Origin: Actinomycetales bacterium
GTDB taxonomy: Bacteria > Actinomycetota > Actinomycetes > Actinomycetales > Microbacteriaceae
Direction of reading: 5' to 3'
DNA length: 37,981 nucleotides
Assembly (NCBI GenBank): GCA_028868975.1
Contig: JAGWTM010000009.1
Span: 1 to 37,981 of the forward strand
Part shown: piece by piece, positions 35,524 to 37,951 of the stretch
Numbering within the stretch: position 1 is the first letter of the stretch
Layout of the letters: each line of letters opens with the position of its first letter
The notes under the pieces: model-generated
Told to the model about the DNA's origin: nothing
Seen by the model: the letters and a program-made list of their open reading frames with translations, nothing else
Databases searched by the model: none
Made by a program: the position numbers and the translations under genes

Positions 35524-36453
35524 GTGACCGACCTACTTAGCCCATTTGTCGAGATTTCTCGAGAAGACTGGGCGGCACTCGCGAGCCACACTGAGCAGCC
35601 GCTCACTGAGGCCGAAATTTCGCAAATTCGAGGCCTCGGTGACTTCCTAGATTTGCGTGAGGTCAGCGAGGTTTACCTTCCGCTGAGCCGTCTGCTAAAC
35701 CTCTACGTTTCGGCCACCCAGCAGCTGCACTCGGTGAGCAATGACTTCCTCGGCGAGCGCGCAAAACGCGTCCCGTTCATCATTGGAATTGCTGGATCGG
35801 TTGCAGTCGGCAAGTCGACGGTGGCTCGATTGCTCAAGGAGCTGCTCTCCCGCTGGGAAGGCACCCCCCGCGTCTCACTCATCACAACAGACGGCTTTCT
35901 GCACCCCAACGCCGAACTCGAGCGACGAAACCTCATGCACCGAAAAGGGTTTCCCGAATCGTACGACCGACTTGCGCTCTTGAAGTTTGTGGCCGACGTG
36001 AAAAGCGGTGCTCAGGTGGTCGAGGCCCCGGTCTACTCACACCTGGTTTACGACATCGTCGAGAACGAGCGAATCAAAATCGACAGTCCGGACGTCCTAA
36101 TCGTCGAGGGGTTAAACGTGTTGCAACCCCCAGCCGCCGGCCAAGAGGTGGCTCTTAGCGACTATTTCGATTTCACGATTTATGTCGATGCCGAGGTCGC
36201 CGACATCACCGACTGGTTCTTGGGTCGCTTCAAAAAGCTACGTGAATCAGCATTCACCGATCCGGCCAGCTACTTCCACCGGTACGCCGAAATGCCTTAC
36301 GAGGACGCCCTTGCGCGAGCGAATGAGATTTGGCGAACGATCAACCTTCCCAACCTGCTCGAAAACATTCAACCGACTCGTTCCCGCGCAAAACTCGTAC
36401 TCAAAAAAGGCGAACAGCACGCCGTGAAGAGCGTGCTGTTGCGTAAGAGCTGA
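35524..36453 (+). CDS. coaA: Type I pantothenate kinase CoaA
   Basis: Phosphorylates pantothenate, the first step of CoA synthesis. 309 residues from the GTG at 35524; a TTG three codons earlier is also in frame. Walker A is GIAGSVAVGKST (near residue 87), followed by LITTDGFLHPN, RKGFPESYD and VEGLNVLQ, all diagnostic of the prokaryotic type I kinase. It is divergent from glmS across 41 bases and ends six bases before the stop of the convergent small peptide gene. Confidence 0.96.
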   Translation: MTDLLSPFVEISREDWAALASHTEQPLTEAEISQIRGLGDFLDLREVSEVYLPLSRLLNLYVSATQQLHSVSNDFLGERAKRVPFIIGIAGSVAVGKSTVARLLKELLSRWEGTPRVSLITTDGFLHPNAELERRNLMHRKGFPESYDRLALLKFVADVKSGAQVVEAPVYSHLVYDIVENERIKIDSPDVLIVEGLNVLQPPAAGQEVALSDYFDFTIYVDAEVADITDWFLGRFKKLRESAFTDPASYFHRYAEMPYEDALARANEIWRTINLPNLLENIQPTRSRAKLVLKKGEQHAVKSVLLRKS

Positions 36454-36459
36454 TCGCAC

Positions 36460-36582
36460 CTAGGCGATGCAGCAGCGAATGACGTCATTTGCTGTGCGTG
36501 GCTGCACCGCGGCCGCTTGAGCGGGCACTGCCAGCCCGGCCGCGAGCATTGCTGATGCCACGAATGCCATAACGGTTTTCAA
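36460..36582 (-). CDS. Small secreted peptide, possible pheromone precursor
   Basis: A 40-codon frame starting with TTG, preceded by AAAGGGGG with a seven-base gap. The product has a textbook Sec signal: Lys2, a hydrophobic stretch (about residues 4-19, VMAFVASAMLAAGLAV) and an AxA site (PAQA, residues 20-23). This leaves a mature tail of about 17 residues ending RTANDVIRCCIA with adjacent cysteines. A perfect -35 TTGACA (36651-36646), a 17-base spacer and CACGCT (36628-36623) form a possible promoter. The gene is divergent from the HTH-TPR regulator and convergent with coaA. It is too short for family assignment. Alternatives are a small bacteriocin-like peptide or a chance frame; a type II lipobox is absent. 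Confidence 0.55.
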   Translation of the reverse strand: MKTVMAFVASAMLAAGLAVPAQAAAVQPRTANDVIRCCIA

Positions 36583-36600
36583 TCGATTTCCCCCTTTCAC

Positions 36601-36622
36601 CCTCGATTTGAGGTAATCATTA
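36601..36622. promoter_or_regulatory. Palindromes in the peptide/regulator intergenic region
   Basis: CCTC-N5-GAGG (36601-36613) is followed directly by TAAT-C-ATTA (36614-36622). They sit around the expected transcription start of the peptide gene and just before the regulator GTG, where an autoregulatory HTH protein might bind. Function is inferred from position only. Confidence 0.3.
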
Positions 36623-36625
36623 AGC

Positions 36626-37951
36626 GTGGTTAGAAGTAATTCGACTGTCAAGGGTGGAGGCAGTTCAACCCGCGAAACCTCGGGCACAACAACCGAGGCG
36701 CATGGTTTGACCGGAGCCGAGCTTCGCAAACGCCGGCAAACCCTTGGCTTGACTCTTGAGGCATTGTCCTCAGGCATTTGCAGCACGGCCTACCTGTCGC
36801 TTATCGAGCAGGGTCACCGGCAGGCATCGCCTCGCATTGCCGCGCTCCTGTTGGCTCGCCTCGAGGCGCGAGCCGGTGAAGCTGGGATTGCGATTCAAAT
36901 CGCTGGCCTGCGACTAGCCGAATGGCAGCTTCGGCAGACCGGCAGCTTGAGTGCAGAAGTACGCTCTGGCCCGGCACTGCGCAACCACCAGCAGCTGCTC
37001 GATGCTCTCGAGAGTGAGGCCAGAGACGAATTCGGCACCGCGCTGGCCCAAGTCGAGGCCTGGTTCGAAACCATTCCAAATAGCAGAGAGCTGAAGAGTT
37101 TCGGGGCTCGCCTGCGGGTTCGATTGCTGCGTGAACTCGGTCGTGATGCTGAGGCTCTCAAATTTGCCAGTGACCTAGTTAGCTCGGCTCCGACTACCGC
37201 AAAAGTGCGTCAGGATGACCTGCTCGAACTCGTCTTTCAAACTGCGGAACTCTATTCGGCCGCTGGACTCTGGCGCGATGCAATCAGGGTTATTGATTCG
37301 CACAAGGGTCTGATCAGTGAACCGCGACAGCACGTGAATGCCTTCTGGGCCAGATCCAGCGCCTATTACGCAAAAGGCGATTTCATTAATGCGCTGAGCG
37401 AGGTTAACTCTGCAATCGAGGCAATTAGCGACCTTGACCTCCCGGTCGCGAGGGCGTCCCTGATGACCAATGCAGTCTGGTACGAGTTGCACGCGGGAAT
37501 CGTAGACGCGCCAGCACAACTTGCTCAGCTTGATGCAGCGGTCGAAGTCCTTCGCGAACACGGTCAGGCTTCGCGTATCGCCTGGGCCAATTGCGCGTAT
37601 GCGCTGCTCGCAGCAAAACTCCAAGACCGCGACGAGTTCATTCGCTGGGCAAGAACCGCAATCACGTTGAGCATCAACACGCAAACGCGGGATCACGACG
37701 AATTGATCATTTCTCTCGCTGAAATCGCGGTTGTTTCGGGTGAGCAAGAGTTCGCACTCGAGCTTCTAGCCGCGATTGATTCGCGCACGCGAACGATTCA
37801 AGCGAGTCGTGCCGAAGCGGCCATCCTCTACAGAGCCGGCAAGGTAGCCGAAAAACTTGGCAATTTCGTGCGGGCCTTCAACTACCTGAACGGGAGCCAC
37901 GAGCTCATGGGATTTCGCTCGAAGTTGATTGACTCAGAGCTAAATAGCTAG
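36626..37951 (+). CDS. HTH (XRE-type)-TPR transcriptional regulator, RRNPP-like architecture
   Basis: A 441-residue protein. Residues about 28-78 form an XRE helix-turn-helix (LTGAELRKRRQTLGLTLEAL, SSGICSTAYLSLIEQG, SPRIAALLLARL). The remaining ~350 residues are helical with TPR-like spacing (for example AFWARSSAYYAKGDFINALSEVNSAI and AAILYRAGKVAEKLGNFVRAFNYLNG). This is the layout of peptide-sensing RRNPP regulators, but also of other HTH-TPR proteins. The GTG at 36626 is listed. A TTG at 36707 with GAGG eight bases ahead would remove 27 low-complexity residues and start right at the HTH. Divergent from the small peptide gene. Ligand and targets unknown. Confidence 0.85.
   Translation: MVRSNSTVKGGGSSTRETSGTTTEAHGLTGAELRKRRQTLGLTLEALSSGICSTAYLSLIEQGHRQASPRIAALLLARLEARAGEAGIAIQIAGLRLAEWQLRQTGSLSAEVRSGPALRNHQQLLDALESEARDEFGTALAQVEAWFETIPNSRELKSFGARLRVRLLRELGRDAEALKFASDLVSSAPTTAKVRQDDLLELVFQTAELYSAAGLWRDAIRVIDSHKGLISEPRQHVNAFWARSSAYYAKGDFINALSEVNSAIEAISDLDLPVARASLMTNAVWYELHAGIVDAPAQLAQLDAAVEVLREHGQASRIAWANCAYALLAAKLQDRDEFIRWARTAITLSINTQTRDHDELIISLAEIAVVSGEQEFALELLAAIDSRTRTIQASRAEAAILYRAGKVAEKLGNFVRAFNYLNGSHELMGFRSKLIDSELNS

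Follow-up and report, generated by a model that had tools for sequence, protein, structure and literature searches.

In the ComRS type II systems of streptococci, an HTH-TPR regulator adjoins a small peptide gene whose pheromone carries a WW motif near its C terminus, and the ComR-peptide complex acts at inverted repeats located before the peptide gene and before a target (as described in PMC5131902). In the PlcR-PapR system of the Bacillus cereus group, the peptide PapR7 is given as ADLPFEF (PMC6568020). Surveys of RRNPP systems, as presented in PMC9765709 and PMC10075063, were built on Bacillota. For Actinomycetota, signals are typically described as small molecules made by enzymes (according to PMC10075063), and cyclic or modified peptides are also mentioned in a 2016 review, as far as its account goes (PMC4748050). 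In the literature covered here (preprints and most subscription papers were outside its scope), no description was found of a regulator paired with a peptide that ends in two vicinal cysteines (CC), and none of an RRNPP-like system in Actinomycetota. Such a pair is the subject of the present analysis.

The peptide gene and the regulator in the window

The window, i.e. the whole stretch of 37,981 nucleotides that was analysed, is an entire contig (C89) whose last 740 bp overlap another contig (C51) at 98%. Contig C51 continues from the overlap into glmM and, in consequence, the order of the locus is glmS, coaA, the divergent peptide and regulator genes, and glmM. The first-pass annotation had described the pair as sitting in its coaA-glmS neighbourhood as if inserted, and the genus agrees with that description: glmM is within reach in 20 of the 30 coaA loci fetched, and coaA and glmM lie at most 20 bp apart in 11 of the 30, hence the pair occupies a variable spot. 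Other occupants of the coaA-glmM gap, named by eye from their sequence, are a rhodopsin-like membrane protein (L226, L228, L230 and L234) and a toxin-antitoxin-like pair (L236). The features of the locus are collected in Table 1.

Table 1. Features of the peptide-regulator locus, with positions in the window.
Feature	Position	Strand	Details and basis
CC-tailed peptide gene	36460..36582	-	TTG start, 40 codons plus stop; frame, and homologous CC-tailed frames beside homologous regulators
Sec-type signal MKTVMAFVASAMLAAGLAVPAQA	36514..36582	-	codons 1-23; sequence, with cleavage after AQA predicted by rule
Presumed exported tail AAVQPRTANDVIRCCIA	36463..36513	-	codons 24-40; translation
TGC-TGC, conserved Cys37-Cys38 pair	36469..36474	-	sequence and comparison with relatives
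Shine-Dalgarno-like AAAGGGGG	36590..36597	-	7 nt ahead of the peptide start codon
Terminator-like hairpin, then T run	36413..36440	-	inside the coaA 3' end, 20 nt past the peptide stop
TTGACA/TGTCAA element	36646..36651	-	in all 9 compared same-family intergenic regions
CCTCGG-N9-CCGAGG inverted repeat	36678..36698	n/a	just ahead of the probable regulator start; candidate element
XRE-TPR regulator	36707..37951	+	probable TTG start, 414 aa; alternative GTG 36626, 441 aa
Helix-turn-helix DNA-binding domain	36713..36808	+	profile match and structure model
TPR-like superhelix, presumed peptide-binding domain	36971..37906	+	profile matches, structure model and fold search

The precursor of the peptide reads LKTVMAFVASAMLAAGLAVPAQA/AAVQPRTANDVIRCCIA, where the slash marks the presumed cleavage point. 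The 40-codon frame with a ribosome site and a Sec signal, as reported at first pass, is confirmed, the signal being recognized by rule (K2, a hydrophobic core and AQA). The terminator-like hairpin is a weak candidate, since one such hairpin was found against an average of 2.5 in shuffles. Compared with NCBIfam, the window peptide gave one match alone, below the cut-off (WGxxGxxG, E 0.05). As nothing matched among 6 system peptides in NCBIfam or among 5 in Pfam, assignment of the CC peptides to a known peptide family was rejected.

The regulator had been announced as an XRE-TPR protein of 441 residues; the frame is real and contains both domains, but its probable length is 414 residues, because the same-genus homologues begin within about 10 residues of the HTH, which points to TTG 36707 and not GTG 36626 as the start. 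GAGG lies 8 nt upstream of this TTG. The frame (36626-37951) matched HTH_3 with an E value of 9.8e-5 and 22.8 bits (cut-off 23), and TPR profile matches are present, all under their cut-offs. Single-chain folding gave a model with an HTH followed by a TPR superhelix (mean pLDDT 91.8), and a Cellulomonas regulator was also modelled (mean pLDDT 89.4). In Foldseek searches, PlcR with PapR7 and Rap with CSF were among the matches (ranks 9 and 16 in one search, PlcR at rank 32 in another). PlcR and Rap were outranked by the eukaryotic protein LGN and by designed TPR proteins, so that the fold agrees with an RRNPP receptor but does not prove such a function. Among the best 60 of 138 PDB sequences, PlcR was the only one aligned over both the HTH and the TPR parts of the family profile (E 4.4e-10), generic TPR proteins scoring higher there.

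With the regulator starting at TTG 36707, the intergenic region between the two genes measures 124 bases. As had been noted at first pass, it contains palindromes, e.g. the CCTCGG/CCGAGG repeat. The TTGACA/TGTCAA element occurs in every one of the 9 intergenic regions compared within the window's family, with 17 copies in total (two or three copies in five of them, one in the window) versus a mean of 0.45 in simple shuffles, some of the nine loci being close relatives. The earlier proposal that this hexamer belongs to a peptide promoter overlapping the regulator start was not upheld: the hexamer is present, but no -10 box was seen 16-18 nt from the minus-strand TTGACA (36651-36646), the consensus promoter scan reports no promoter there, and the overlap would be true only with the GTG 36626 start, the start codon being probably further on.

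Distribution of the pair and constraint on the peptide gene

Homologues of the regulator are present in just 8 of 67 genus genomes, that of the window included (E <= 1e-15). The first six same-genus homologues (L002-L007) are 23-27% identical, and homologous regulators with a CC frame beside them 16-26%. All seven other same-genus regulators found (L002-L007 and L017) have a small divergent frame beside them in which CC stands 2-3 residues before the end and, hence, CC was taken as the mark of the system. In a fresh test of this mark, a nearby CC-tailed, signal-like ORF accompanied 21 of 22 new full-length order loci (L021-L042) and none of 7 control loci matched in the HTH only, whose 12 small signal-like ORFs were all devoid of CC. 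At the order level, 30 of 31 loci pass the CC filter (18 with the peptide divergent, 12 with it upstream on the same strand; L010-L016 repeat earlier loci), and the remaining one, L033, has the CC motif with a longer tail, as seen by eye. Elsewhere within these 31 loci, CC was found in 0 of 64 signal-like small ORFs. When ORFs were picked regardless of CC, CC still outnumbered every other tail dipeptide (28 of 31 loci); divergent ORFs picked in this way in 30 loci (19 found) had CC in 16 loci and the next dipeptide in 5.

Beyond the order, profile A3 matched 103 of 394 genomes in the class set and 25 of 198 in the phylum set (E <= 1e-15; the sets overlap). Among the strong class-level loci (L050-L079, of which L074 repeats an earlier locus), 27 of 29 have a CC peptide, and in the other two the regulator lies near the end of the fetched stretch; many of these peptides terminate exactly in CC-COOH, e.g. 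...IQPQWPGMCC. From 254 relatives in named genomes 80 were kept, mostly from Cellulomonas, plus Actinotalea, Jiangella, Phytoactinopolyspora and others, and 78 of the 80 have a CC peptide (this set overlaps species of the earlier ones). The expectation of a conserved exported-type peptide beside HTH-TPR homologues is, then, borne out well beyond the genus. In the Jiangellaceae-type loci L062, L064, L068 and L070, a second CC-ending peptide lies past the far side of the regulator. At L019 (624-1806), a CC peptide lies convergent to a TPR protein that lacks an HTH and adjoins a tryptophan-dioxygenase-like gene.

Related regulators without such a peptide neighbour exist. In 40 further chosen class loci, partly weaker, a CC peptide was found in 13 (12 of 22 above 200 bits, 1 of 18 below) and an adjacent CC frame was missing in 27 (10 of 22 and 17 of 18, respectively), to which a looser inspection of some of the remaining loci added no convincing CC peptide. 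At the phylum level, 0 of 6 scored loci (of 14) have one, the count leaving out L083-L088, L091 and L092, whose regulator was not located by motif. Of 21 plasmid records, 8 were read: 2 have CC frames, in one record annotated as the hypothetical protein WP_123083198.1, and 6 have none. On a tree of 83 regulators (near-copies omitted), the CC label needs 10 changes versus 25.0 in shuffles, with 0 of 500 shuffles as low; the window regulator's own branch is long and its placement unsure. A viral origin was rejected, as viral_contigs, scanned once with a regulator from Jiangellaceae as query, gave no relative; a phage collection gave one weak match, on an unverified faecal scaffold.

The peptide ORF is under purifying selection in the relatives, which substantiates the coding constraint expected of it. 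Over 18 non-overlapping independent pairs out of 78 named peptide genes, pS was 0.242, pN 0.076 and pN/pS 0.31-0.32, versus 1.57-3.31 in the wrong frames, except one reverse frame at 0.43, and differences at codon positions 1, 2 and 3 numbered 67, 43 and 169. In the named loci, CC occurs in 75 of 87 signal-like ORFs located up to 900 bases upstream and in 3 of 134 elsewhere; two of these three are the system's own peptide within a long frame, and the third, in L211, is an additional CC peptide situated almost 3 kb upstream of the regulator.

Candidate operators and possible functions

A shared palindrome, a candidate operator judging by its sequence and position, lies at the peptide and regulator genes of the Cellulomonas group only. 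With exactly this spacing, GTCA-N9-TGAC is found in the 90 bases preceding the regulator at 58 of 78 loci and in the 130 bases preceding the peptide at 41 of 78, compared with 6 occurrences when some 300 kb of sequence from the regulators and downstream of them was scanned; it was not found in three Jiangellaceae loci examined. In the 69 co-directional loci it appears at three places: before the regulator (58), before the peptide (50) and further upstream (54). In Cellulomonas, the third site overlaps the start of a divergent EAL-domain gene (PF00563, matched at 44-51 bits along the C-terminal half of the profile). An EAL-like pattern, searched with a rough expression, was present in 50 of 77 loci, and in some cases the third site occurs in its absence. 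At L142 (1066-2549), the interval from holA to the system contains two adjacent EAL-domain genes, which are divergent to the peptide and match the C-terminal half of the domain profile only. Genome-wide, GTCAYN7RTGAC has 22-40 sites per genome versus 1-5 for the reversed pattern (6 genomes); among the matches listed, triple clusters coincide with the system locus in both G813 and G699, and the excess elsewhere may reflect GC-rich codons or true targets. Competence was rejected as an output: comEC-holA is upstream in Cellulomonas and Actinotalea, but the window does not have this arrangement and no link to competence emerged.

Since the pairing, the shared tail motif, the coding constraint and the shared candidate operators all point to a ligand and its receptor, the two genes probably form a peptide-sensing circuit that resembles RRNPP systems but uses a ligand of a new class. 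In such a circuit: (i) the small gene would yield a precursor with a predicted N-terminal export signal, to be exported and cleaved; (ii) a tail of about 10-17 residues with the Cys-Cys pair would be released outside; (iii) the tail would re-enter the cytoplasm of the producer or of a neighbour; (iv) it would bind the TPR domain of the adjacent HTH regulator; and (v) the regulator, either bound or free, would control its own gene and the peptide gene, and in some cases an output gene nearby, from operators in front of them, resulting in feedback control. As for import, SBP_bac_5 oligopeptide-binding proteins are encoded by all 8 genomes of the genus in which the regulator was found (8 of 8), and are too common to count. 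The actinobacterial RRNPP analogue proposed at first pass is in part supported by the pairing and the coding constraint, and the candidate operators shared by peptide and regulator fit it; the orphan regulators speak against a strict pairing. A simple peptide-receptor pair of this kind, encoded in the genome and found across several orders that include producers of antibiotics and degraders of cellulose, would supply ready-made peptides as candidate signals and as handles on the behaviour of Actinomycetota, of which there are few; the operator and the short tails make the system directly testable.

A bolder form, which we consider rather unlikely, is that the pair works as a redox switch: the Cys-Cys would be oxidised outside (as disulfide or dimer) and reduced after re-import to the receptor-binding form, within a large actinomycetotal family of pheromones with C-terminal Cys-Cys, each with a dedicated HTH-TPR receptor. 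Only a peptide passed through another cell's surroundings and back would then be a signal.

In one alternative, which is unlikely, the cell exports the CC peptide as an effector (antimicrobial or active on the envelope), and the TPR regulator only controls it while sensing something else. Small secreted cysteine peptides are often antimicrobial, and operators common to both genes would suit this role; nevertheless, the tails can be as short as about 12 residues and differ greatly among relatives, the CC pair alone being common to them (in an alignment of peptides chosen for CC), and no dedicated exporter or immunity gene was noticed in an unsystematic look at the neighbour genes of 11 loci. 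An autocrine probe of the envelope, whose thiol pair would report outside oxidation or metal and whose returned form the regulator would read (chemistry being sensed, not density), seems quite unlikely: vicinal cysteines are indeed the shared feature and Cys is rare elsewhere in the tails, but the 11 loci read showed no gene for redox or metal functions next to the pair. It is very improbable that the signal never leaves the cell, the precursor being sensed prior to export so as to monitor Sec capacity or the precursor's own expression; the L003-L005 peptides have short, atypical signals that would agree with this, but most precursors have clear signal-type N termini by rule-based reading, many with an AxA-type site. 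Finally, it is barely conceivable that the peptide frame is open by mere chance within a spacer between genes, for although the window peptide has too few close relatives for a selection test of its own, the fresh and named loci, the lack of CC in ORFs elsewhere, the pN/pS and the codon-position bias all argue against it.

Comparison with described systems

In the circuit that we favour, the regulators have the receptor architecture typical of RRNPP(A), i.e. TPR repeats and, in most, an N-terminal HTH (profiles and models), and an adjacent small gene encodes an exported-type propeptide, its signal read by rule. Like PlcR-PapR, the pair would join HTH and TPR domains to a peptide ligand, although the PlcR ligand, in the form cited above, lacks a Cys pair and the system belongs to another phylum. 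Like Rap-Phr, it has a TPR receptor with a peptide: Rap is among the Foldseek matches, and at L019 the protein next to the CC peptide has TPRs but no HTH; Rap itself, however, has no HTH, whereas most regulators here do. The nearest parallel in design appears to be ComS of type II streptococci. As in ComRS type II, at least in the account cited above, an HTH-TPR regulator adjoins a small peptide gene and a doubled residue lies near the C terminus; unlike there, the tails carry CC and not WW, no connection with sigX (which ComRS type II controls) was noticed, the precursors are of Sec type and the hosts are Actinomycetota.
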